A DNA stretch of 32,702 nt from the NCBI GenBank assembly GCA_017305935.1, contig JAFKJU010000045.1, positions 1 through 32,702 on the forward strand, written 5' to 3'. Positions within the stretch are counted from its first letter, which is position 1; each line of letters starts with the position of its first letter. Under the pieces are notes generated by a model. That model searched no databases, was not told where the DNA came from, and saw nothing but the letters and a program-made list of their open reading frames with translations. This DNA comes from Hyphomicrobiales bacterium. GTDB lineage: Bacteria > Pseudomonadota > Alphaproteobacteria > Rhizobiales > Rhizobiaceae. The position numbers were made by a program, and so were the translations under genes. This document shows, in pieces, positions 5,817 through 32,702 of the stretch.

Positions 5817-8800
5817 ATGGCGAACAACAAGAACAACGAGTCGATCGACGAAAAGGCATATGAGGCGTTGGAAAACGCCTTGCAGATCAATTTTCGCGAC
5901 GACAAATCCTCGCCGCGGCAGAAGGCCCAGCCGGATGCCAAGGGAGCGGTGAACAAGCCGCGCCAGAGAAGCGAGCAGGCCCAGCCTCGCCGCGCGCCCG
6001 ACGCCGCCCAGGGGCAGCGTGCGCCCTCGTCGGCCGCCAACGACGCCAGCCGGCGCAATTCCGCCAGTATCATGAAGTCGCTCGACGGTGGCTCGCTCAA
6101 GCCGGCGCTGCGCATGGCGACGATCGTCAGCGCCCTGTGGGTCCTCGGCGGCTTCGGCCTGGCGCAGATGCTGCTTTCGCCGCAGATCTGGCAGGTGCGC
6201 TCGCTCGCCGAATTCATCGCCCTTCCCGGCGCCGGTGCGCTGCTGATCGGCACGCTGCTGCCGCTGCTTCTGATCTATGCCTTCGCGATCATGATCGCCC
6301 GCGCGCATGACCTGCGCAACGCCGCGCGTTCCATGGCCGAAGTCGCATTGCGCCTGTCCGAGCCGGAAACGATTGGCTCCGAGCGCATCATGACCGTCGG
6401 CCAGGCCGTGCGCCGCGAGGTCATGGCGATGAACGAGGGCATCGAGCGCACCATCGCTCGCGCCGCCGAACTGGAAACCCTCGTCCATTCCGAAGTCAAC
6501 GCGCTGGAACGCAGCTATACCGACAATGAAATGCGCGTGCGCGGCCTGGTGCAGGAACTGGGCAGCGAGCGCGAGGCGATCGTCAACCATGTCGAGCGCA
6601 TCCGCTCCACGATTGCCGGCGCAAACGAGCAGCTCAAGGAAGAAATGTCGCTGGCGACGGAGGAGATCACCATCCGCCTTGCCACGTCGGGCGAGGCGTT
6701 CGCCTCGCTGATCGACACCCGCGCGGCGATGCTGACGGAGAAATCCGACGCCGCCGCCGAAGCCATCGGCAACCTGCTCAGCAGCCGCACCGAAACCCTG
6801 CTGCAGACTCTGAATTCCTCCGGCTTCGCGCTGACCAACGAATTCGACACCCGCCTCGAGGAACTGAACATCACGCTCGGCGAGCGCGGCCGTGAACTGC
6901 TCGACCAGTTCGAGACCCGCGCCTCGACGCTGGACCAGAACACCGAGCGCCTGAACGCAGCCCTGAACGAGCGCGCCCAGCAGCTCAACGAAAGCCTGAT
7001 CGCCCGCACCCGCGAGATCAACGACACCCTGACCGGCGGCCACAGCACGCTGGCCGGCACGCTCGACGACGTGCTCGCCAAGCTCAACAGCTCGATCGAG
7101 GAAAAGGGCAGCAGCTTCCGCCAGTCGCTGCAATCGAGCATCGACGACACGATCATGGATCTCGACCTGCGCTCGGGCTTCTTCGAGGAACGGCTGCAGA
7201 CCACCGTCAACCAGCTGTCGACCATCTTCGACGACCGCGTCTCGGAATTCACCGAAGCCTTCGAAAACCGCGTCGGCTCGCTGGACAGCAAGCTGATGGA
7301 AAGCCTGACCCGCATCAGCGAAACGCTGAACGGCGGCAGCGATTCCATCGACGGCATCCTCAATTCCAGCATCGACCGCCTCGGCGCTTCGCTGAGCGAC
7401 CATTCCTTCGCATTGGCGACCGCGCTCGGCACCGGCCAGGAAGTGCTGGAAAGCAGCTTCGACAGCCGCATGCGCGACCTGACCGACAGCCTGCACGCCC
7501 GCTCCAACGACATTTCAGGCGTGCTGGCAAGCACGGCCGGCGAAATCACCGCCGCGCTCGGCGAAAAGACGGTGGAAATGGCCGCCGTTCTCGGCGCCCG
7601 CACCGATGAATTCCACCGCGCGCTCAACAATCGCGCCGAGGAAATCTCCGGCGCCATCGGCCAGCGCACCGACGAATTCTCCGCCATGCTCGAAGAACGC
7701 ACCGCCGGCCTCTCCGGCGCGCTCGAAAGCCGCAGCCGCGAACTGTCGAACACGCTCGATGCCCGCTCGGAGGAATTCCAGCGCGCCGTCGGCGGTCGTG
7801 CCGAAGAAATCGCCAGCGCCATCGGACAGAAGGCGGTCGAATTCTCCGCCATGCTCGGCGAACGCACTGCCACCCTATCCGGCGAATTGGAAAGCCGCAG
7901 CCGCGAACTGTCGCAGACGCTGGAGGCACGCTCCGGCGACCTCAGCCGCGCGCTCGAAGACCGCGCCGGCAGCATTTCCTCCGCCCTGGAAAAGCGCACG
8001 GCGGACTTCGCCACGATGATCGGCGATAAGACCGCCGACATGGCCAGCGAGATCGACCTGCGCAGCATGGAACTGACCGCCGCCCTCGGCGCCCGCACGG
8101 AAGAGCTGAGCGGCGCCCTGGCCGCAGGGACCGAACAGCTCGGTTCGGCGCTCGGCGAACGCGTGCTCGACATGACCACCACGCTCGCCCTACACAGCGA
8201 CCAGATCGCCTCCGCCATCGACAGCGGTAAGACCGAGATCGCCGATAGGCTCCAGTCCACCGGCAGCGAAATCGCCTCCATCCTCGGCGCCCGCACGCGG
8301 GAGATGCAGGCTACGCTCGTCTCCGGCACGGAACAGCTCGACGCGACGCTTGGCGAGCGCATGCTCGACATGACCACCACGCTTGCCCTACACAGCGACC
8401 AGATCGCCTCCACCATCGACAGCGGCAAGACCGAGATCGCCTATCGCCTGCAGACGACCAGCAACGAGATCGCCTCGACGCTCGGTGCGCGTACCCGGGA
8501 ACTCAACGAAACCCTGGCCTCCGGTACCGAAAGCCTCGGCTCCGCCCTGGGCGACCGCATGCTGGAAATGGCGACGACGCTCAGCCTGCACAGCGACCAG
8601 ATCACCTCCACCATCGACAGCGGCAAGGCCGAGATCGCCGATCGCCTGCAGACGACCAGCAAGGAGATCGCCTCGACGCTCGGTGCCCGCGCCCAGGAAA
8701 TCAACGAAACCCTGGCCTCCGGCACCGAACGCCTCGGCTCCGCCCTGGGCGACCGCATGCTGGAAATGGCGACGACGCTCGGCCTGCACAGCGACCAGAT

Positions 8801-11800
8801 CACCTCCGCGATCGACGGCGGCAAGACCGAGATCGCCGACCGCCTGCAGGCCGCCAGCACCGACATCGCCTCGACGCTCAGCGCCCGCACGCGCGACGTC
8901 GCCGGCGCGCTGGCCAGCGGCACCGAGAAGCTCGATGCCGCCATGACCGAGCGCATGCTGGAAATGACCACGGCGCTGGGTCTCGGCAGCGACCAGATCG
9001 CCTCCGCCCTCGATTCGACCGAACACCGTCTGGAGCGGCTGATGAGCGAGCGTGGCGACGCCTTGCTCGGCACACTGGAGCAGACGCGCACCCGGTTCGA
9101 GGAAAACTTCTCCGAGCGCGCCGATGCGGTCATCGACGCTGTCACCGGCGGCCAGGGCCGCATCGCAGAGGCGCTCGATCAGCGCACGAGCGCGCTCGCC
9201 GAGCACCTTTCCGATGGCGAACGGCGCATCGCCGCCGCCATGGACCAGCGCGCGGCCTCGATGGCGGCGGCGCTCGAAAGCGGCCACTCGCGCATCGCGG
9301 GCTCGCTGGCCGACGGGCAGTTGCGTCTGGACCAGGTGATCGGCGACGGCGCCGCCCACGTCGCCTCGACGCTGGAGCGTAGTGAACAGCGCATCGCCGA
9401 AACCCTGCGCGACGGCCAGACGCGTCTCGACCTGACGCTGGAAGAACGCACCGGCGCTCTTCTGAATTCCGTTGCGGGAACGCAGCAGCGCCTGACGTCG
9501 ACGTTCGGCGAGCACAGCGAAGCCATCACCCAGGCCTTGAAGAACAGCGAGGAGCGGCTCGGCAATGCCCTTCTCGATGGCCAGATCAACCTGGACATGA
9601 TGCTGGAAACACGCACCACCGCCGCCATCGAGGCGCTCGGGGATGCCGAGAATCGTATTGCCGCCTCGCTTGGCCAGCAGGCCGATTCGATCCGCGAGAC
9701 CTTCGAGACCAACCAGCAGCGCTTCGAGACGTCGCTGACCGGCCAGACCGGTAATCTCAGCGCCCTGATCGAAGCCGGCCGCAATGCCATCGATTCGGTG
9801 CTCGGCGCTTCCGTCGAACGGGCGGAGACGGCGATTTCCAGCGGCGCCCGCCGCATCGCCGAAACCGTCTCCGGCGGCATTGCCGGCATCGAGACGACGC
9901 TCGGCTCGACCGAGGACCGTATCCGCGGCGCCCATGAGCAGATTCGCACCACGTTGGACGAGCGCGGCAACATGATCGGCTCGGCCCTGGAACAGGCCCG
10001 CTCCGGCCTGGAGCACATGCTGTCCGAACAGGCGACATCGATCGGCACCACCATCGCCACCAGCGCCAGCATGATGGAAATGTCGCTGGAAGACCGCGAG
10101 ACCGCGCTGCGCCAGGCCATCGACGCCAGCGCCGAGCGCCTCGACCAGCGCCTGCGCGACAGCACCGGCCATATTGCCGACCGCATGCTCGACACGGCCG
10201 GCCGCATTGCAGTCACCGCAGAGGAGACCGCTGCCCGCATCGATCGCTCCGCCGAAACGCTTTCCAGCCGTGTCGACGACGCCGGCTCTCGCGTCGAAGC
10301 CAGCTTCTCGCTGATGGACAACAAGGTGCGAGACAATGCTGCAGGCATCGTCGACCGCGTCGGCGCCACCGGGCGGCAGCTTGCCGAGGCGCTGTCGATG
10401 CAGGTTCACGGCATCGAGCGCAGCAGCGCCGAAGCCACCAACCGCCTGACCGAATCGCTCGATGCCCGCCGCACCGAGATCGCCCAGACGATCGACAACG
10501 GTGCCACGCGCCTCGCCGAAAGTGTCGAAAGCCGCGCGCAACGACTGGCCGAAACCCTCGACAGCCGAACCGAGCGCCTCGACGAACGTCTCGACACCAT
10601 GAACCGGGCGCTGAATGTCGGCCTCGACAACGTCACCCGCACCATCGAGGAAAAGGCCAGCGGCCTTGCCTCGACGCTGCGCCATGCCGTCACCGATGCC
10701 ACGCAGGGAATCGACGCCGAAGCCATGCGCACCGCCGACATCCTGTCACGCACCGGCGCGGAGTTCCTCGACCAGATCGACCGGAAGAACACCGAGTTCA
10801 CCCAGTCGGTGGAGGAGCGCGCCGACCGCATCGTCGGCCGCGTCACCGAAACCCAGAACCGCCTCGCAGCCCAGGCCGCCGCCGTCGCCCAGACCTTCTC
10901 GGCCGCCGGCAATGCCATCGTCAACAAGGTGGCCGAGGCCGAAGGGCTGGTCAGCAACCAGGTCAGCGCCATCTCGCAGACGCTCGCCAATGCTGAGGCC
11001 TCCCTCGAAGCGCGCGGCGATGCCATTCGCGGCTCGCTGCAGCAGAGCAGCGACGTGATTTCCCAGGCCGTCGGCGAGGCCGAACGGGCGCTGACGCAGC
11101 GCGGTGCCTCGATCCGCACCACACTGCATGAAAGCACCTCGGAACTGGCCGACATGCTGGCCGAAGCCGAACGTACCCTGGATGCGCGCGGCGAATCGGT
11201 GCGCACGACGCTGGAAACCAAGACGACGGAACTGGAAAGCACGCTGTCACAGGCCGAGCGCACGCTGGAAGCCCGCGGCAATGCCATCCGCTCCGCCCTG
11301 CACGGCAGCACCGAGCAGATCGCCGAGACATTGTCGAATGTCGACCGTGCGCTCGAAGCCCGTGGCGACGCAATTCGCACAGGCATCGACGCCCGCGTCC
11401 GTGAAATCGACGAATCGCTTTCCAACGTCGACCGCCAGCTCGAAGCCCGCGGCGCCTCGGTCCGTTCGTCCATCGACGAGCGCACCCGTGAGCTGAATTC
11501 GATGCTGGCCGGCCGCTCCGCCGAACTTGCCCGCCTGATTGAGGAGAAGGCGCGGCCGGTCATCGACGATTACGCCGCCATCGGCCGCGCCGCTGCCGAA
11601 CAGATCACGGCCGCCGCCCAGACCGGCGCGGATCGCCTGCGTGCCGAGAATGCCGCGCTCATCAACGCCATCACCGCCCGCGCCGACAGCGCCGCCAACC
11701 AGCTCTCGACTATCGAAAGCACCCTGGCCGAAAGCGTCAACGGCCTGATCGACCGGCTTGCCCAAAGCAATTCCGGCATCGCTTCGGTGGTCAACCGCGC

Positions 11801-13451
11801 AAGCGAAGACCTTCGCGGCGTCAACCAGACGATGGAAGCCGCGACCTCGCAGTTCGTTGAAGCCGCCGACAAGGCCGCCGAGCGCGTCTCGACCTCGACA
11901 CGCTTCCTCGAAGGCAAGGTCGAGCGCCTGGCCGGTATCTCCGGCGACACGCTGGCGCAGGTTTCGGGCATCGTCACCCGCTTCGGCGATCATTCCAAGA
12001 TGCTCGGCCAGGCGACGGACCTGCTCTCGGCTGCCCAGACCAATCTGGTCAGCACGCTGGAGGAACGCGAGGAAGCTCTGCGCAACCTCGCCGTTGGCCT
12101 CGTCAAGCGTTCGGACGAAATCGAATCGTCGATGCGTTCGCTGGCCGGCATGGTGGAAAGCGCCTTCGATCAGGCCGAGCAACGCTCCAGCCAGGCGACC
12201 AGCAATCTGCGTCAGGGTATCCAGACCTCGTTTGCCGAAGTCGGCCGCGTTCTCTCGGATGCGGAAAAGCGCGCCGAAGCCGCTGCCGAAGGCATGCGCG
12301 ACATGGTGGTCAAGGCCTCGCAGGACGCACGGCAGGCGCTGGAACACTCCTTCACGGAAGCCGAGAAGCGCTCCGGCGATCTCGCCGGCCGGGTTCGCAG
12401 CGGCGTCGGCCAGTCGCTGGCCGATGTCGACAAGCTGCTGGCCGAAAGCGGCCAGAAGTCCGGCGCCGCCGCCGAGCAGATGCGCGCCGCGCTTCGCGAA
12501 GCCGTCGACGAAGCCGTCAACCGCTTTGCCGGTGCCACCGATGAAATTCGCCGCTCGGCGCATGAGATCCGCAAGGAACTCGACGTCACCCGCGGCGAGC
12601 TGCGCAAGGGCGCCTTCGATCTTCCGGAAGAGGCTAAGGAAAGTGCCGCCGCCATGCGCCGCGCCGTCTCCGAGCAGATCAAGGCGCTACAGGATATCTC
12701 GCAGATCGTCGGCCGTTCCTCGCGCAATCTCGAAGTCTCCGAGCCGTCGCTGCGCGCCATGGCCGAGGCCCAGCCGCAACAACGCCGCCCGGCGCCGCAG
12801 CCGGCAGAACAGCCGCGCGAGACGCAAGGCTTTCGCCCGGACGACAGCTTCGGCCTGCGCGGCAGCATTTCGATGAGCCGCCCGGTCGTCGCCCCGCCGG
12901 CTGCGCCCGCCGCCCCAGCCCCCGCTCCCGCACCGCTCACCACTGAAGCGGCTCTGCGCGGCGCGGAAACCGGCGGCTGGATCAGCGACCTGCTGCGCGG
13001 CGCCTCGCGTGACGAAGCTCCACAGGCCGAGCCGGCGCGCGCGCCGCAGCCGCGCCCGGTGGAAGCCGCCGCCCAGCCGCGCAACGGTGACACGCGCAAC
13101 CCGCGCCATGTGGTCGAATCGCTGAATTCGCTGTCTGTGGATATCGCCCGCGCCATCGATCACGATGCCTCGGTCGAGCTGTGGCGCCGCTACCAGCGCG
13201 GCGAGCGCGACGTCTTTACCCGTCGCCTCTACACGCTGAAGGGCCAGCAGACCTTCGACGAGATCAAGCGCAAGTATGACCGCGAGCCGGAATTCCGCAC
13301 CGCCGTCGATCGCTACATCGCCGATTTCGAAAAGCTGCTCGGCGATGTCGCCCGCACCGACCGCGACAAGACGGTGACCCAATCCTACCTGACCTCCGAT
13401 ACCGGCAAGGTCTACACGATGCTGGCCCACGCCGCAGGCCGGTTCAACTAA
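5817..13451 (+). CDS. Growth Pole Ring-like protein (GPR/RgsE): giant membrane-anchored apolipoprotein-like coiled-coil protein
   Basis: A 2,544-residue protein. Residues 1-95 are polar and disordered; two membrane helices lie at about 99-120 and 137-161; residues 165-2270 are a continuous heptad/11-mer helical rod rich in A, E, R, S and T, with phrases such as LGARTREL and LESRSRELS. About 2270-2415 is a Pro/Ala-rich linker, and the last 120 residues are a compact conserved-looking domain ending LAHAAGRFN. This layout matches the GPR protein of Agrobacterium tumefaciens (about 2,100 residues) and RgsE of Sinorhizobium meliloti, which form a ring at the growing pole and are required for normal polar growth. 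Residues about 760-1060 contain a 66-residue repeat. Automated annotators often mislabel such proteins kinesin-like or apolipoprotein. The start has GAGG upstream. It is followed by a terminator. Confidence 0.8.
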   Translation: MANNKNNESIDEKAYEALENALQINFRDDKSSPRQKAQPDAKGAVNKPRQRSEQAQPRRAPDAAQGQRAPSSAANDASRRNSASIMKSLDGGSLKPALRMATIVSALWVLGGFGLAQMLLSPQIWQVRSLAEFIALPGAGALLIGTLLPLLLIYAFAIMIARAHDLRNAARSMAEVALRLSEPETIGSERIMTVGQAVRREVMAMNEGIERTIARAAELETLVHSEVNALERSYTDNEMRVRGLVQELGSEREAIVNHVERIRSTIAGANEQLKEEMSLATEEITIRLATSGEAFASLIDTRAAMLTEKSDAAAEAIGNLLSSRTETLLQTLNSSGFALTNEFDTRLEELNITLGERGRELLDQFETRASTLDQNTERLNAALNERAQQLNESLIARTREINDTLTGGHSTLAGTLDDVLAKLNSSIEEKGSSFRQSLQSSIDDTIMDLDLRSGFFEERLQTTVNQLSTIFDDRVSEFTEAFENRVGSLDSKLMESLTRISETLNGGSDSIDGILNSSIDRLGASLSDHSFALATALGTGQEVLESSFDSRMRDLTDSLHARSNDISGVLASTAGEITAALGEKTVEMAAVLGARTDEFHRALNNRAEEISGAIGQRTDEFSAMLEERTAGLSGALESRSRELSNTLDARSEEFQRAVGGRAEEIASAIGQKAVEFSAMLGERTATLSGELESRSRELSQTLEARSGDLSRALEDRAGSISSALEKRTADFATMIGDKTADMASEIDLRSMELTAALGARTEELSGALAAGTEQLGSALGERVLDMTTTLALHSDQIASAIDSGKTEIADRLQSTGSEIASILGARTREMQATLVSGTEQLDATLGERMLDMTTTLALHSDQIASTIDSGKTEIAYRLQTTSNEIASTLGARTRELNETLASGTESLGSALGDRMLEMATTLSLHSDQITSTIDSGKAEIADRLQTTSKEIASTLGARAQEINETLASGTERLGSALGDRMLEMATTLGLHSDQITSAIDGGKTEIADRLQAASTDIASTLSARTRDVAGALASGTEKLDAAMTERMLEMTTALGLGSDQIASALDSTEHRLERLMSERGDALLGTLEQTRTRFEENFSERADAVIDAVTGGQGRIAEALDQRTSALAEHLSDGERRIAAAMDQRAASMAAALESGHSRIAGSLADGQLRLDQVIGDGAAHVASTLERSEQRIAETLRDGQTRLDLTLEERTGALLNSVAGTQQRLTSTFGEHSEAITQALKNSEERLGNALLDGQINLDMMLETRTTAAIEALGDAENRIAASLGQQADSIRETFETNQQRFETSLTGQTGNLSALIEAGRNAIDSVLGASVERAETAISSGARRIAETVSGGIAGIETTLGSTEDRIRGAHEQIRTTLDERGNMIGSALEQARSGLEHMLSEQATSIGTTIATSASMMEMSLEDRETALRQAIDASAERLDQRLRDSTGHIADRMLDTAGRIAVTAEETAARIDRSAETLSSRVDDAGSRVEASFSLMDNKVRDNAAGIVDRVGATGRQLAEALSMQVHGIERSSAEATNRLTESLDARRTEIAQTIDNGATRLAESVESRAQRLAETLDSRTERLDERLDTMNRALNVGLDNVTRTIEEKASGLASTLRHAVTDATQGIDAEAMRTADILSRTGAEFLDQIDRKNTEFTQSVEERADRIVGRVTETQNRLAAQAAAVAQTFSAAGNAIVNKVAEAEGLVSNQVSAISQTLANAEASLEARGDAIRGSLQQSSDVISQAVGEAERALTQRGASIRTTLHESTSELADMLAEAERTLDARGESVRTTLETKTTELESTLSQAERTLEARGNAIRSALHGSTEQIAETLSNVDRALEARGDAIRTGIDARVREIDESLSNVDRQLEARGASVRSSIDERTRELNSMLAGRSAELARLIEEKARPVIDDYAAIGRAAAEQITAAAQTGADRLRAENAALINAITARADSAANQLSTIESTLAESVNGLIDRLAQSNSGIASVVNRASEDLRGVNQTMEAATSQFVEAADKAAERVSTSTRFLEGKVERLAGISGDTLAQVSGIVTRFGDHSKMLGQATDLLSAAQTNLVSTLEEREEALRNLAVGLVKRSDEIESSMRSLAGMVESAFDQAEQRSSQATSNLRQGIQTSFAEVGRVLSDAEKRAEAAAEGMRDMVVKASQDARQALEHSFTEAEKRSGDLAGRVRSGVGQSLADVDKLLAESGQKSGAAAEQMRAALREAVDEAVNRFAGATDEIRRSAHEIRKELDVTRGELRKGAFDLPEEAKESAAAMRRAVSEQIKALQDISQIVGRSSRNLEVSEPSLRAMAEAQPQQRRPAPQPAEQPRETQGFRPDDSFGLRGSISMSRPVVAPPAAPAAPAPAPAPLTTEAALRGAETGGWISDLLRGASRDEAPQAEPARAPQPRPVEAAAQPRNGDTRNPRHVVESLNSLSVDIARAIDHDASVELWRRYQRGERDVFTRRLYTLKGQQTFDEIKRKYDREPEFRTAVDRYIADFEKLLGDVARTDRDKTVTQSYLTSDTGKVYTMLAHAAGRFN
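8193..9050 (+). repeat. Tandem 198-bp (66-residue) in-frame repeats inside the GPR-like gene
   Basis: The phrase encoding HSDQI recurs with exact 198-base spacing at 8193, 8391, 8589 and 8787, and more divergently (GSDQI) at 8985. Each unit encodes a version of SDQIxSxIDSGKxEI. Sixty-six residues is six 11-mers, matching apolipoprotein-like helical periodicity. Units two to four are so similar at the DNA level that recent duplication or gene conversion is likely. Confidence 0.9.
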
Positions 13452-22541: not shown

Positions 22542-22629
22542 ATTTCGGGGTGGCTTTGGCCGAGGGAAAAAGGGACGATTTCAGGGCATAGCGTTCGGGA
22601 GAAGCAAATTTACCCGAATGGCAGGAAAT

Positions 22630-23184
22630 ATGAGAAAAATCGGATATTTACGGGTTTCGACGGAAGAGCAACGGCCGGACAGGCAGATTGACGGGCTGAC
22701 GGCCATCTGCGATGAACTCCACATCGAAACCCTGTCTGCCGTCAGCAAAACCCGCCCTGTCTATGAAAAGGTCATGCGCCGCCTGAAAACAGGCGATATT
22801 TTCGTGGTCTGGGACTTGGACAGAGCATATCGCTCGGCGCGGGATGCGCTGAACGCTTTCAGCGCCTTGCAAAAGCGCGGTGTCCGGTTTCAGGTGATAA
22901 ACCTGCCCATCGATGTGAACACCGATTACGGTTATTACTTCTTCACGGTAATGTCGGCGCAATGCGAGCTTGAGCGGCGGATGCTGTCACGCCGCACCAA
23001 GGAAGGGCTTGCGGCGGCGCGGGCGCGTGGCAAGGTCTTGGGTCGTCCGCGCAAGCTGAATGATCATCAGATCGCCGAAGCGCGCGAGCGGCTGCGAACG
23101 AAACAAATGACCATCACTGCAATGGCCAAGGAAATGAAGGTCGGACGCGGCACGCTTTCCAACGCCCTGAACCATACCCCATAG
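22630..23184 (+). CDS. Small serine recombinase (resolvase/invertase family)
   Basis: A 184-residue site-specific recombinase. The catalytic N-terminal domain begins MRKIGYLRVSTEEQRPDRQ, with the nucleophile serine in YLRVST (S10). Later it has VVWDLDRAYRSARDAL (the conserved D-R-x-x-R-S/D region), followed by the long E helix containing ERRMLSRRTKEGLAAARARG. The C-terminal 45 residues are a Hin-type helix-turn-helix (ITAMAKEMKVGRGTLSNAL). The length is that of Tn3-type resolvases, not of large serine integrases. ATG at 22630 has AGGA upstream and is preferred over the in-frame ATG at 22618. It may resolve multimers or transposition cointegrates of the element. Confidence 0.92.
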   Translation: MRKIGYLRVSTEEQRPDRQIDGLTAICDELHIETLSAVSKTRPVYEKVMRRLKTGDIFVVWDLDRAYRSARDALNAFSALQKRGVRFQVINLPIDVNTDYGYYFFTVMSAQCELERRMLSRRTKEGLAAARARGKVLGRPRKLNDHQIAEARERLRTKQMTITAMAKEMKVGRGTLSNALNHTP

Positions 23185-25946: not shown

Positions 25947-27848
25947 ATGGCTGATCTCGACCGCATCAAACGCAACGTTGCCAAGATGGCATCACAGAAC
26001 GCGCCTATTGAAGATATCGACGGCTACATCGCTTCCGAAGGGGTCGAACTCGACGATGTGCGCAACTTCAAACCGGAGGCCGGTGTAGGCAATCCAACGC
26101 CGCCGACCTCTCAGGAAGGTACATTCCAGCGAAGCACGGTTCTGCCGCTTGGCAAGGACACCGCCACCGGGGAAATCAGTTGGGCGGTTCCCGGGGCAAT
26201 CGCCGCCATTCCCGGCCTCATCAGCGGGGCCGCCAGGAGCGCCGTGGATGCCGCGATGCTGCCCGGTCGCGCATACAACGGGGAAATCCAATTGACAGGG
26301 CCCGATGGTCGCCCGACACAGGAAGCAATTGAACAGGCGGCAAACTTTGCCATGTGGGCTTCTCCTGCCTCGCCGGCACAATCAATGCCGCTTTCCCCAA
26401 CTGTGCGGGCGGCGCGACCAAAGCCGGAAGGTCTACAAGTCGCCGAAGCTGGGCAACGGCTTGGCGTTGATCTTCCGCGCGCCGCCACTTCTGACAGCAT
26501 GACAATTCAACAGGCAGGGAAAACAATTGCCAATGCTCCCTTCGCCGGTTCGCCTTTGCGGAAAGCCAGCGCTGACGCCGTTGAAGGTTTGAAGGATGCC
26601 GCTGTGCGCGTCCGTGAAGGATACGGCACGGGAAGCGTAGCCAATGCCGGCGGTATGGCGCGCGACGGTATTGAGAACTATGCCAAGACAACCCTGGGGG
26701 ACCGTGTCAAAGCAAGCTATGACGCCGTCGATGGATTGGTCACCCAAAACGTAGTAACGCCGCTGAACCGCACGGCCAAAATTGCTGGAGAAATCCTATC
26801 CAGCCGAACCAATTCCCAAGTCCCCGGGCGGTCTCGCGCGGTGGGCCTCGTCGAAAAAGCACTATCGTCTAGGGACGGCCTGAACTATCAGGGCTTGAAA
26901 GACCTGAGAACGTCTGTGGGCGAGCTTCTGGAAAATCCGTCCCTGATACCGTCCAATATGAGCCAAGCGGAACTTAAACGCATCTACGGCGGCCTGACTG
27001 ACGACCTGCGCAACGCTGTCGCGCGCGCTGGAGGTGAGAAGGCGACAAAGGCTTTCGATGATGCGAACGCACTAGCGGCGAGCGTCGCGAAAGAGCGCGA
27101 AGCCCTACAAAGCGTTCTCGGACGACAGACTTCCGACGAGGGCATTTTTTCTCGGATTGAAGCAATGGCCGGCTCTACCGCCCGCGCTGATCAAAATGGG
27201 CTCATGAAGGTGCGCGGTGCCGTTGGTAAAGACACTTGGGATGAGATTGCCTCCGGCGTGATTGCCCGCTTGGGGAATGAAGGGAGCGGGAACTTCTCGC
27301 CTGATCAGTTCTTGACCAAGTACAACAAGCTTTCGAACACTGGCAAATCGCTTCTGTTCGGGGGCAAGCAGGAGTTCGCTAAGTCGCTGGAGGATATCGC
27401 CACGGTGTCTCAGCGCTTCAAGCAGTTGAACCAGTATGCAAACCCAAGTGGTACGGCAGGCAGCGCTCTAACCGGCATTGCCGGCTACGGGCTTGCTTCG
27501 AACCCGATGGGTACAATAGCCAGTTTGGTTGGCGGCCGCGCGCTATCGTCAGTGCTTGCAAAGCCTCGTAGTGCGAAATCCCTTGCCAACTGGGCAAAGG
27601 CGTATGAGGAGGCGACGCTTAATCCGAGTGTGAAAACGACCTTCCTTCTCGACGCCCGGGCGAAGGTTCTAGCGACTGAGCTTGCGGCGGAAACGGGCGG
27701 CACCCTTACACGCGATCAAATACTTCCTTCGATATCGCGCGTCGGTCAGGTGCAGGCAGATGATGGGAATGAAGATCAGGGGGCTCAAGAAAACAAGCAA
27801 GGTCGTGTACCCGCACAGCCGCGCCGTCTGCTTCCAAACGAAACCTGA
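25947..27848 (+). CDS. Phage-like structural/ejection protein (633 aa)
   Basis: No exact family recognised. It begins MADLDRIKRNVAKMASQNAP with a short N-terminal helical domain, a glycine/alanine-rich probable membrane-active segment (AVPGAIAAIPGLISGAARSA, about 79-98), then a long Ala-rich helical body. A second hydrophobic region lies at about 507-545 (GTAGSALTGIAGYGLASN and IASLVGGRALSS). The tail is polar. Large Ala-rich helical proteins encoded directly after an ejection-type gene often form the injected pore proteins of tailed phages; this role is inferred from position and composition. A GGAATAAG ribosome site overlaps the upstream stop. Confidence 0.55.
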   Translation: MADLDRIKRNVAKMASQNAPIEDIDGYIASEGVELDDVRNFKPEAGVGNPTPPTSQEGTFQRSTVLPLGKDTATGEISWAVPGAIAAIPGLISGAARSAVDAAMLPGRAYNGEIQLTGPDGRPTQEAIEQAANFAMWASPASPAQSMPLSPTVRAARPKPEGLQVAEAGQRLGVDLPRAATSDSMTIQQAGKTIANAPFAGSPLRKASADAVEGLKDAAVRVREGYGTGSVANAGGMARDGIENYAKTTLGDRVKASYDAVDGLVTQNVVTPLNRTAKIAGEILSSRTNSQVPGRSRAVGLVEKALSSRDGLNYQGLKDLRTSVGELLENPSLIPSNMSQAELKRIYGGLTDDLRNAVARAGGEKATKAFDDANALAASVAKEREALQSVLGRQTSDEGIFSRIEAMAGSTARADQNGLMKVRGAVGKDTWDEIASGVIARLGNEGSGNFSPDQFLTKYNKLSNTGKSLLFGGKQEFAKSLEDIATVSQRFKQLNQYANPSGTAGSALTGIAGYGLASNPMGTIASLVGGRALSSVLAKPRSAKSLANWAKAYEEATLNPSVKTTFLLDARAKVLATELAAETGGTLTRDQILPSISRVGQVQADDGNEDQGAQENKQGRVPAQPRRLLPNET

Positions 27849-29873: not shown

Positions 29874-30365
29874 TTACGACACAGCCAAACGATGCGCCCT
29901 AAGACTACCGCGTGCGCTGGTAACGAAGGCTTGGCAGGCTCTTGCAACTCTTTTGCTACATTCTTCGCCTGTAAGGAAAGTAACGTCGTTTTCGATCTGA
30001 AGCATTTCGTCAACAAGGCGCAACAAAGCGGCATTTATTTCCGTGAGTACCTTGTCACCTTGGGTAGCGCACAGCGCGTCACATGCGAAGTACCAAGGAT
30101 TGAACTCCCTCTTCATCGCTTTCGATAAGGTCTCGATCCGTTCAACCGGCTCGTCCACGTCCGCGAGCATAGTTGTAAGGCTCATTGAGATAACCTCAAG
30201 CGTGTTCAGCTTCGCCTCGACAGGCGTTACGAGCCAGGCGTCGTATTCTCCAACGGTTCGGGCGGCGCTTCGAAGTCTCTTTTCAGTTGTCCAAGTATAG
30301 ACGGACGCCAAAATGGATACCACAAGAGACACGCCCGCAACGACATCAGCAGCCGTGTACTCCAA
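29874..30365 (-). CDS. Single-pass membrane protein, third gene of the STAS/ATPase operon (163 aa)
   Basis: One N-terminal hydrophobic helix (about 8-26, DVVAGVSLVVSILASVYTW) is followed by a basic TTEKRLRSAAR, so the bulk is probably cytosolic. The rest is a predicted helical bundle with four cysteines. The start is TTG at 30365, preceded by GGGGAT. It lies 15 bases after the STAS-like gene stop. Within the operon it could be the membrane effector or anchor of the module; no effector motif is recognisable. Confidence 0.6.
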   Translation of the reverse strand: MEYTAADVVAGVSLVVSILASVYTWTTEKRLRSAARTVGEYDAWLVTPVEAKLNTLEVISMSLTTMLADVDEPVERIETLSKAMKREFNPWYFACDALCATQGDKVLTEINAALLRLVDEMLQIENDVTFLTGEECSKRVARACQAFVTSARGSLRAHRLAVS

Positions 30366-30380
30366 GATAAATCCCCATTA

Positions 30381-30710
30381 TTAAATCAGGTCTTCACGGC
30401 TCGAAGTCGCGTTGCGAATGCCAATATCGATCCATCGTAGAACCCGGCTATTCGCGATGAATTTATATTTTTCTAAAAATGCCTTTTTGCCTTCAAGCCG
30501 CTGAATGCTACCGGAAAACAGCCCCTGAAAGTAAGACGGCGAAATAGCGTCAACGTAATCTGGCACCAGCACCTCAACGGTATTATCGTCTCGGTCTAGT
30601 TCATCAAGATGCAGTTCCGCGCGAGCGGCAATGCCCCGCTCTTTGCCGGAAAGATTCTTCACCTTTCCGCTTCCCGCGAGCTTATCCAGGTCCAGTTGGA
30701 CGGTGGTCAT
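30381..30710 (-). CDS. STAS-like protein of DUF4325 type (109 aa)
   Basis: A small soluble protein resembling the STAS-like DUF4325 family. The family core is seen in VEVLVPDYVDAISPSYFQGLFSG (in two parts: VEVLVPDYVDAISPS at 45-59 and YFQGLFSG at 60-67), where an acidic turn and Ser precede the recognition helix, followed by IQRLEGKKAFLEKYKFI. STAS proteins act as anti-anti-sigma switches that are phosphorylated by GHKL kinases; the ATPase-containing gene is directly upstream. ATG at 30710 follows the previous stop by four bases with AGGGA overlapping, so coupling is likely. Which serine or threonine would be phosphorylated is not certain (S57 or S59). Confidence 0.62.
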   Translation of the reverse strand: MTTVQLDLDKLAGSGKVKNLSGKERGIAARAELHLDELDRDDNTVEVLVPDYVDAISPSYFQGLFSGSIQRLEGKKAFLEKYKFIANSRVLRWIDIGIRNATSSREDLI

Positions 30711-30714
30711 TTCC

Positions 30715-32100
30715 CTACGTCCCGTCAAAAGAGCCATCAATCGCAAATCTCATAGTTATCAGCGTGCCAGGCAGAGCATACGGCAGGTCGATAACGTGTG
30801 TCTCAGCTGGTGGTTTCAACACATCGTTATCGACATTGAACCACTGAAGTCGGCGCTCGGTATTACCTGACACAATCCCGTTAAGATAGGGGGTGTCGAA
30901 TTTAATATAGCTCCGGCCCGATATTAAAGCAATTTTCGGACTTTTGCCGGCTATCGGTAGCTTGCCGACTTCATTTACGAATTCGGCGACGTCCATCAGC
31001 CCTGTCCCGCCGCTCGGCTGCCCGTCGCCTTGCTCCACTCGCGAAATGCCATCCTGAAGCGCGAAGACAGTGGCCAGCGTCTCGGGCGACAGACCGGATT
31101 TCCTATGCCTAGCCACATAGCGTTCGATTTGTGCTTTGACCGCACGAGGCCCATTGTTAATGGTCTCTGCGACGGTGCGCCCTTCGTTATAGAAGCAGAG
31201 ATGGCAAACGTGGGCGGTAACTCCCCCGCGGTCAATCCGCCTCGCCATAAAACCACCAGTGATCCAATCACCATCGCCACCTACCGGCCCATGTCTTTCC
31301 GCATTGTTTAAGATTTCTCCCACTGTTGCTCTGATCTTTGCCAGGCCGTGGTCTGTAAGCTCCCTCGGGGGAGTTAACTCGAGCAACCAGTTATTTACGT
31401 TTGCGGCGATGCCATCAGCCGTTATTTCAACGCGCGATGGTTCATAAGCCATATTGTCTGTCTTCGTCGACCCGGCCCTTCTGCGGCGCGTGAGGGGGAA
31501 GGCCCAGACGTCATACATCGGAACACGGCCAAAAGACCGCATTCGAAGGAATTCGCGGAGCCTCAATGCCTCAAGGACTTTCACAACTCGGCGGTGTACA
31601 CCGCCCCCTGTCGCAAGGGGCGCCATTTTTTCCCGCATTAAGCCTAGGACTAGATAAGGGCCGATGTCAGTTACATACTCGTCTAAGAAATCAATCCTGA
31701 AATTAACGCGCTCGCATTCAGCGACGGCAATTGCCTTGAGAGACTCAAATGTCTTCAGAGGGTTATCGATGAAGGAAAATTCTTTGCACGTTAAATGACC
31801 GCCACTACGACGTTGCGTTATTTTCCGCCAGCGAATCTCTCTATCCGGTACCAGCGCAGCAAGCATCTTGCACTCCTGGAAACGAGATATAAGCAGAGTT
31901 CGGCTAAACGGTACCCTGCGTTTTACACGTCTCCTTAGTATCAGTCGCCGCTTTACTGCTTTTGCTCTCGCATCTCCATTGCGAGCTTTTTCCCTATCGC
32001 GCACGAGAACGAGTAGCGCACGGAAGTCGCTGTCATCGAGTTCTCTTAAAGCAAATTTATTTGCCTTCCGTACTTTGAATGGCCATGAAATTTTTGACAT
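30715..32100 (-). CDS. STAS-like region plus GHKL (histidine-kinase-type) ATPase protein (461 aa)
   Basis: The C-terminal part (about 225-460) has the Bergerat-fold ATP site: N-box VGEILNNAERHG with E262, N265, N266 and H270, and the G boxes LQDGISRVEQGDG and GGTGLMDV (364-371). There is no H-box or DHp dimerisation domain, so it is not a classical sensor kinase. Residues about 100-190 (KTFESLKAIAVAEC, RIDFLDEYVTDIGPYLVLGL and VVKVLEALRLREFLRM) have the strand-helix pattern of a STAS-type domain, recognised only by eye. The N-terminal 75 residues are very basic. It would act like SpoIIAB/RsbW-type partner-switching ATPases. It leads a three-gene operon; ATG at 32100 follows AGGAA at ideal spacing. 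Confidence 0.68.
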   Translation of the reverse strand: MSKISWPFKVRKANKFALRELDDSDFRALLVLVRDREKARNGDARAKAVKRRLILRRRVKRRVPFSRTLLISRFQECKMLAALVPDREIRWRKITQRRSGGHLTCKEFSFIDNPLKTFESLKAIAVAECERVNFRIDFLDEYVTDIGPYLVLGLMREKMAPLATGGGVHRRVVKVLEALRLREFLRMRSFGRVPMYDVWAFPLTRRRRAGSTKTDNMAYEPSRVEITADGIAANVNNWLLELTPPRELTDHGLAKIRATVGEILNNAERHGPVGGDGDWITGGFMARRIDRGGVTAHVCHLCFYNEGRTVAETINNGPRAVKAQIERYVARHRKSGLSPETLATVFALQDGISRVEQGDGQPSGGTGLMDVAEFVNEVGKLPIAGKSPKIALISGRSYIKFDTPYLNGIVSGNTERRLQWFNVDNDVLKPPAETHVIDLPYALPGTLITMRFAIDGSFDGT

Positions 32101-32429: not shown

Positions 32430-32702
32430 TTACAGCAATGAAGCCGCTTTACTTGGCGTTGCAATTTCAATGTCTCTAAAACGCGAATGAGCGGACAATC
32501 TCTTCGAGAAATTTCGGTCGGAAGTCACAAAGACATCGCGACCGTAAAAGATATGACCCCACATGGCCTGAGCATCCAAGAAGCGGTTGCGCCACTTCCA
32601 TCCCTCTCTTGACTCGATATCGTCAGGATCAACGCCCTTTTCGCCGGCATAAGCTGGCCATTTAGGATTTGTTGAAGGAAACAACGCGCTAAAAATTTCC
32701 GT
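32430..32702 (-). CDS. PIN-like domain protein, C-terminal part (gene continues right of window)
   Basis: The visible 90 residues end in DAQAMWGHIFYGRDVFVTSD followed by RNF and a tail IEIATPSKAASLL. The HIxxxRDxFVTxDxxF pattern with an aspartate near the end is typical of the C-terminal half of PIN-like ribonucleases, where the last acidic residue binds metal. The frame stays open to the window edge, so the true start and the first acidic residues lie outside. It ends about 330 bases upstream of the ATPase operon on the same strand. It may be a lone gene or part of the same accessory cluster. Confidence 0.5.
   Translation of the reverse strand, partial: TEIFSALFPSTNPKWPAYAGEKGVDPDDIESREGWKWRNRFLDAQAMWGHIFYGRDVFVTSDRNFSKRLSAHSRFRDIEIATPSKAASLL

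Follow-up and report, generated by a model that had tools for sequence, protein, structure and literature searches.

A contig of 32,702 nucleotides from a Hyphomicrobiales bacterium (JAFKJU010000045.1 of assembly GCA_017305935.1; this whole stretch is referred to below as the window) carries at its right end three genes that follow one another on the minus strand, encoding a GHKL-type protein (K), a small STAS-like protein (S) and a membrane protein (M). What kind of system do these genes make up, and has anything like it been described? The original prediction, made from the letters of the window, had seen in them a compact module with the switch logic of SpoIIAB/SpoIIAA and RsbW/RsbV, a membrane protein as its output and an exact gene set not known from any described system. 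We find that the three genes are genuine and belong together as a conserved module, probably a relative, so far unrecognised, of an anti-phage switch that was described recently.

Conservation of the three-gene order

The three open reading frames (ORFs) were confirmed as predicted: K (30715..32100, minus strand), with 461 residues from an ATG start and, as judged from the ORF, its homologues and an AlphaFold2 model, a basic N-terminus followed by STAS-like and GHKL domains; S (30381..30710, minus strand), a 109-residue STAS-like, DUF4325-related protein by profile alignment (hhalign) and model, also with an ATG start; and M (29874..30365, minus strand), with 163 residues from a TTG start. The gaps between them measure 4 bases (K-S) and 15 bases (S-M).

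Searches with K led to 50 loci with this order, comprising the window, locus L003, 4 plasmids, 13 viral contigs and 31 genome contigs, after the copies L014-L016 and L034 had been dropped. It was measured by script in 48 of these and read by eye in L042, a metagenome assembly in which K is broken and S and M are readable further on; in L039, a hydrophobic ORF begins in the M position and then enters masked bases. S directly follows K in 49 of the 50 loci, neighbouring genes of the module frequently overlap by a few bases, and identity of K to the window copy ranges from 17 to 54% in the aligned rows. When viral contigs were scanned with S as the seed in place of K, 20 loci emerged, 4 of them on contigs already seen in the K searches. 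Among the 18 loci with room for it, 17 had K upstream, recognised in 8 through a strict motif and in 9 through a relaxed N-box pattern. Downstream, 19 of 20 had a hydrophobic third ORF, with the frames taken from stop to stop, such that some hydropathy maxima may precede the true start; the sole failure on both counts, L112, is probably a chance hit. Because the order is kept in 50 loci while K identity falls to 17%, and because the S-seeded search agrees, this neighbourhood is beyond chance, and elsewhere, too, homologues of the three lie side by side, as the module idea had supposed.

Predicted kinship of K and S to DUF4325-linked pairs

K, S and M had nothing near the cut-off in Pfam, NCBIfam or PADLOC, and in PADLOC 2.0.0, a library of 2023 that predates VapKSC (described below), none of the 4 window proteins (K, S, M and a fragment upstream) matched at E values up to 1; DUF4325 had no match in the window S or anywhere in its genome. 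K matched phrog_3364 (E = 1.4e-4) and S matched phrog_37359 (E = 2.9e-8), two PHROG families without an assigned function. Profile comparison used as a reference 13 DUF4325-linked kinases, here called canonical (2 PIN-linked, 5 with a membrane or likely membrane third gene and 6 other; the published VapK is not included). The K family aligned with these kinases at 99.0% in hhalign (pairwise E = 2.4e-18) across both the STAS and the GHKL parts, and the S family aligned with 15 DUF4325 proteins at 92.9% (E = 3.8e-7), as compared with 0.05% for an unrelated control. The DUF4325 S profile in turn matched Escherichia VapS in the PDB (9z7o, E = 9.3e-16), and the canonical kinases matched, weakly, RsbW (6m36, E = 5.2e-4), CheA (E = 4.7e-3) and SpoIIAB (E about 5e-3). 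The predicted SpoIIAB/SpoIIAA-like logic is thus upheld through a chain of homology, from K via the canonical kinases to RsbW, SpoIIAB and CheA, and from S via DUF4325 to VapS, and not directly: the K profile matched no PDB sequence, and the best match of the S profile (E = 0.33) was not usable. From these profiles, K and S appear to be distant relatives of DUF4325-linked kinase/STAS pairs, including VapKSC-like ones.

In a tree of 54 kinases, midpoint-rooted and with several canonical rows on long branches, the 41 K proteins fell on their own side of a branch with support 100/99. One of them (L036) comes from a contig titled as a Bacteroidetes metagenome bin and groups with alphaproteobacterial K proteins, reflecting recent transfer or wrong binning.

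The DUF4325 places listed numbered 30, from 28 of 398 genomes, and ten were classified by eye. A PIN protein follows the kinase-S pair in L065 and L068 (Pfam E = 7.1e-9 and 5.2e-8), and a small protein with a hydrophobic stretch follows it in L061, L064, L067, L076 (where the kinase ORF is short) and L081, with L079 unclear. These five share by eye the architecture of our module, including the small membrane third gene, but their third genes are not detectably homologous to M and their aligned kinases keep an Asp in the G1 box that K lacks. Kinase-DUF4325 pairs occurred without an evident third gene in L073 and L075; in L060, L062, L063 and L071, DUF4325 forms the C-terminus of a protein of 334-352 residues with a GHKL-like N-box pattern, which may unite substrate and kinase in one chain.

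An altered nucleotide site and a basic N-terminus in K

The GHKL domain of K spans about residues 223-455 (30736..31434, minus strand), as placed by E262, N266 and H270 and by G365 and G367. In an alignment of 41 K proteins (the window and 40 of the 48 scan loci), E262, L264, N266, A267, H270, G307, G365, G367, G395, N422 and G445 are invariant. The ATP site that had been predicted from E262, N266, H270 and the GGTGL at residues 364-368 is present in these respects, except that its G1-box residue is Asn305 and not Asp. At this position, two before G307, 28 K proteins have Asn, 13 have Ser and none of the 41 has Asp, whereas all 13 canonical kinases do. The G1-box Asp contacts adenine in GHKL proteins. 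The Pfam model HATPase_c_2 matches only 1 of 17 K proteins, at E = 0.053.

Ahead of the GHKL domain lies a STAS-like domain at about residues 102-205 (31486..31797, minus strand), supported by hhalign and by the order of strands and helices in the AlphaFold2 model, in which its limits were set by eye. The model is confident (predicted local distance difference test 89.4; predicted template modelling score 0.86) and, by eye, shows a STAS-like order of these elements. Residues 1-99 (31804..32100, minus strand) form an Arg/Lys-rich extension with 31% Lys or Arg and a net charge of +21. Such a stretch of at least 40 residues is present in 37 of the 41 K proteins, with a median net charge of +19 and 27% Lys or Arg as compared with 12% elsewhere. 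It is absent from the PIN-linked kinases L065 and L068 and from L067, and present in L061, L064, L081 and L085. K is better called a predicted Ser kinase rather than only an ATPase.

A single invariant serine in S

The only residues kept in all 41 S rows are G22, G26, S59 and G63. Rows were chosen by their position after K, with the help of a loose motif of which a Ser-aromatic pair is part; those of L037, L039, L045, L047 and L052 fail this motif, were kept, and also carry the serine. In the model of S (predicted local distance difference test 91.8), the strands and helices follow a STAS-like order by eye and Ser59 (codon at 30534..30536, minus strand) starts helix 58-71, making this residue, present in 41 of 41 proteins, the candidate phosphate acceptor. 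Pfam DUF4325 (PF14213) matches 7 of the 41 aligned S proteins weakly (E up to 0.1, best 4.4e-4), and matched 1 of 18 in an earlier set (E = 5.9e-5). Both the Ser59 column and the column of VapS Ser48 hold a Ser in most canonical members whose third gene encodes a membrane protein.

A variable membrane protein in third place

M consists of one membrane helix (predicted at about residues 4-25 in the window, from the ORF and its hydropathy) followed by a charged helical part. Its single hydrophobic stretch reaches a Kyte-Doolittle value of 1.97 over 19 residues from residue 4, and a 19-residue hydropathy of at least 1.5 was found in 42 of the 48 measured M proteins, as against maxima of 1.43 among 49 S and 1.64 among 50 K proteins. 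Among those below 1.5, L027, L029 and L035 have weaker hydrophobic stretches. In the other three, all alphaproteobacterial M frames (L038 7588-8181, L040 7561-8088 and L041 1183-1686), the hydrophobic stretch precedes the first ATG, GTG or TTG, a hint that these may use a rare start codon.

Profiles of the gammaproteobacterial and Bacteroidota-type M proteins aligned (hhalign 89.8%, E = 1.8e-6), and those of the alphaproteobacterial and Bacteroidota types weakly (52.7%, E = 1.4e-4). M is thus probably one fast-changing family, a view resting on the middle, Bacteroidota-type group, which also includes one gammaproteobacterial and one Gemmatimonadales row. Placing M in one family with the membrane third genes of the canonical DUF4325 operons gained no support (hhalign 2.5% and 0.2%). 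M had no PIN match in Pfam, and the best match of gammaproteobacterial M among PDB sequences (E = 0.43) was not usable.

Resemblance to VapKSC and other described switches

Passages of a report of June 2026 (PMC13373217) describe two systems, CapK/CapS and VapKSC, in which a STAS-GHKL kinase accompanies a STAS substrate. According to these passages, the PIN toxin VapC is let go when the serine of VapS bears a phosphate mimic, VapS S48E neither binding nor neutralising it, and VapKSC confers about 2-log protection against phage Bas42, which is lost with VapS S48A, VapC D28A or VapK F54A. The aromatic residue for stacking on single-stranded DNA is W68 in CapK and, by prediction, F54 in VapK. The word "transmembrane" is absent from the main text of that report.

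Like VapKSC, our module is a three-gene operon in which a STAS-GHKL kinase is joined by a small STAS protein and an output protein; the STAS protein carries a conserved Ser/Thr in both, though not in the same column. By profile comparison, K has both STAS and GHKL domains, as a VapKSC kinase does, and S is linked, via the DUF4325 set, to VapS as a small STAS protein; the third gene, in contrast, encodes the membrane protein M instead of a PIN nuclease. K also differs in its basic N-terminal extension and its lack of the G1-box Asp, and is separated from the 13 canonical kinases by the 100/99 branch, and S differs from VapS in the column of its serine. CapK/CapS share with the module the STAS-GHKL kinase beside a STAS substrate and the link to immune operons, but in the described passages CapK has a helix-turn-helix domain and CapS a winged helix-turn-helix and represses transcription (PMC13373217), whereas the 109 residues of S show only a STAS-like part in the model. 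SpoIIAB/SpoIIAA and RsbW/RsbV likewise combine a GHKL Ser kinase with a STAS substrate; unlike them, the module has no sigma factor or phosphatase, and K has a STAS-like domain of its own. Since the third gene departs from VapKSC, we regard the module as a variant of the kinase-STAS immune switch; it is conserved and related to VapKSC, and has a membrane protein where the toxin would stand.

No report of a kinase-STAS-membrane set was found in the literature searched, a search that stopped short of the supplementary tables of PMC9122126 and PMC13092281. Passages of the latter name a predicted system, not yet validated, that includes a histidine-kinase-like ATPase. The predicted novelty thus holds for the exact set of genes and not for the kinase-STAS pair, which had been described as CapKS and VapKSC (passages of PMC13373217).

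Distribution and genomic setting

The K searches gave matches in 2 of 201 genomes, namely the window's own and that of one relative, in 6 plasmid records (7 with a gammaproteobacterial query), in 16 viral contigs and in 32 contigs of the species genome set. The window S gave nothing in tblastn against plasmids, nor did the first single-sequence scans find anything. By record title the carriers are mostly Pseudomonadota and Bacteroidota, with Gemmatimonadota represented by one metagenome contig.

The module type of L013 was matched in 32 of 5426 complete E. coli genomes (31 of them over at least 80% of the length), at 33 places, all chromosomal; in the 30 rows listed from the 32 matching records, the copies are annotated as three hypothetical proteins. 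All 5 E. coli loci that were opened, among them the copy of the commensal strain SE11, lie between gpQ (portal) and gpA (replication endonuclease) of a P2-like prophage, a position that applies to the E. coli copies, the window being another element. This slot is described as a hotspot of anti-phage systems in passages of PMC9122126, and 4 of the 21 systems in PMC9519451 came from it, according to parts of that paper. Among 144 mechanically called ORFs around 25 of the 31 genome loci, given as raw counts without a background set, Pfam assigned 5 to phage integrase and 2 to P2 gpA (among the first 25 of 124 families), and PADLOC assigned 3 to mad3, 2 to mad2 and 2 to type II methyltransferase models (among the first 25 of 86).

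Small holin-like, lysozyme-like and spanin-like genes adjoin the module by eye in L020, L022 and L023, with a large primase-like gene in L022 as well; these carriers may be phage satellites. L007 is a mobilizable Providencia plasmid of 6.8 kb, of which the module takes at least 29%; its K has no listed gene and probably crosses the record start.

The window contig itself looks phage-like, because it contains a 2544-residue ORF (5817-13451, plus strand) with a weak tape-measure match and several matches to unknown PHROG families, a DNA transfer protein match at 25947-27848 and a DNA invertase match at 22618-23184. About 330 bases upstream of K, an ORF at 32430-32702 (minus strand) is cut by the contig end, and its 90-residue C-terminus looks PIN-like by eye, a likeness that received no backing from Pfam or the PDB. 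The possibility that this fragment is a hidden VapC partner was dropped, as it has no copy in the other loci compared or in 200 other genomes. The idea of a structured RNA leader ahead of K was likewise rejected (z = 0.24 over 150 bases), and promoter and terminator scans gave counts at or below those of shuffled sequence.

Discussion

How might such a module work? We tentatively propose, at a little under an even chance, a kinase-STAS partner switch that guards a membrane effector and releases it by phosphorylation upon damage. At rest, S would bind the cytosolic part of M and hold it inactive. With its basic N-terminus and STAS-like domain, K would sense nucleic acid or DNA damage produced by phage infection and would then phosphorylate Ser59 of S, a step suggested by the invariant N-box residues and serine and by the kinship to VapK and VapS. 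Phosphorylated S would free M, which would act on the inner membrane and arrest or kill the cell before phage release. We infer the anti-phage role from the defence-hotspot position and the kinship to VapKSC; the membrane proteins of known systems are believed to be effectors, according to passages of PMC9122126. A broader proposal, which we consider possible and more doubtful, is that the module represents a phospho-switched class of membrane killers in several phyla, with an unusual nucleotide pocket, an Arg/Lys-rich nucleic-acid sensor and a membrane effector released from a STAS antitoxin. Membrane outputs would then have arisen in at least two kinase-STAS lineages, and the pair would therefore be a general plug-in trigger for different killers.

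Several observations weigh against this damage-triggered switch. The kinase activity of K is not sure, because the G1-box Asp is missing in all 41 proteins, and the serine of S falls one column after Ser48 of VapS, as placed via alignments and a presumed 18-residue tag. Foldseek searches of the PDB with the two models gave nothing that reached E = 0.001 (best 0.059 for K and 0.58 for S). The predicted STAS folds of the N-terminal part of K and of S thus find partial backing, in confident models with a STAS-like order by eye and not in a fold match, and the STAS and GHKL assignments are based on motifs, profiles and strand-helix order. M is poorly conserved, its alphaproteobacterial and gammaproteobacterial profiles showing no match to one another (hhalign 3.1%), and the gammaproteobacterial M proteins place about 50-130 residues ahead of the membrane helix, a layout that a sensor might equally have. 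Activation by single-stranded DNA is demonstrated for CapK and only predicted for VapK, in the passages of PMC13373217. Finally, the module is rare, with matches to the K profile in 3 of the 398 genomes searched from the phylum (the window's own included, and one match over 65 positions only), and tblastn with two K queries against 50,697 phage records gave nothing at the sensitivity used.

The extra residues of the gammaproteobacterial M proteins, together with the signal- or lipobox-like start that they show by eye (e.g., L011, L013, L017, L018 and L021), lend some weight to a different role, in which M is a sensor or anchor that relays a membrane event, such as phage DNA entry or envelope stress, to K and S, with the output elsewhere. 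M is also the most variable of the three genes, as sensors often are. We consider this unlikely: no further gene was kept beside the module in the loci viewed, among which no systematic test was made, and in the passages of PMC13373217 the third gene of VapKSC is the toxin and CapK itself senses single-stranded DNA. The replacement of the G1-box Asp by Asn (28) or Ser (13) in every K protein, against its presence in 13 of 13 canonical kinases, would fit a pseudokinase that clamps S in a nucleotide-dependent manner without phosphorylating it. It is not obvious why such a clamp should require all of the N-box Glu and Asn and the one serine of S, which are invariant in 41 of 41, and we judge this reading improbable.

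We give a similarly low probability to the module serving its carrier, through superinfection exclusion, the timing of lysogeny or the SOS response, or plasmid maintenance as a toxin-antitoxin system. Its occurrence in P2-like prophages, in plasmids down to 6.8 kb and in elements that look satellite-like by eye would agree with such a device, and kinases responding to DNA damage would suit SOS-linked prophage decisions. Yet the module is also found on genome-assembly contigs assigned to three phyla (Gemmatimonadota through the single metagenome contig), and unrelated defence systems are known from the P2 slot; the boundary between defence and such service to a prophage or plasmid is thin in any case. 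That the three genes are chance neighbours without joint function is very improbable: beyond the lack of a Pfam match or of NCBIfam hits near the cut-off for the window K and S we found no support for it, and the 50 loci, the frequent overlaps, the fall of K identity to 17% and the S-seeded search all speak against it.

For the kinase-STAS family, the damage-triggered switch would have a broader meaning. Control of an immune toxin by such a pair was published as recently as June 2026, with a PIN nuclease (passages of PMC13373217). The loss of the G1-box Asp raises the question of which nucleotide K uses, and the copies in E. coli P2 prophages make a clean test possible. If a separate branch does have a membrane output, the kinase-STAS pair would prove to be a modular damage trigger.

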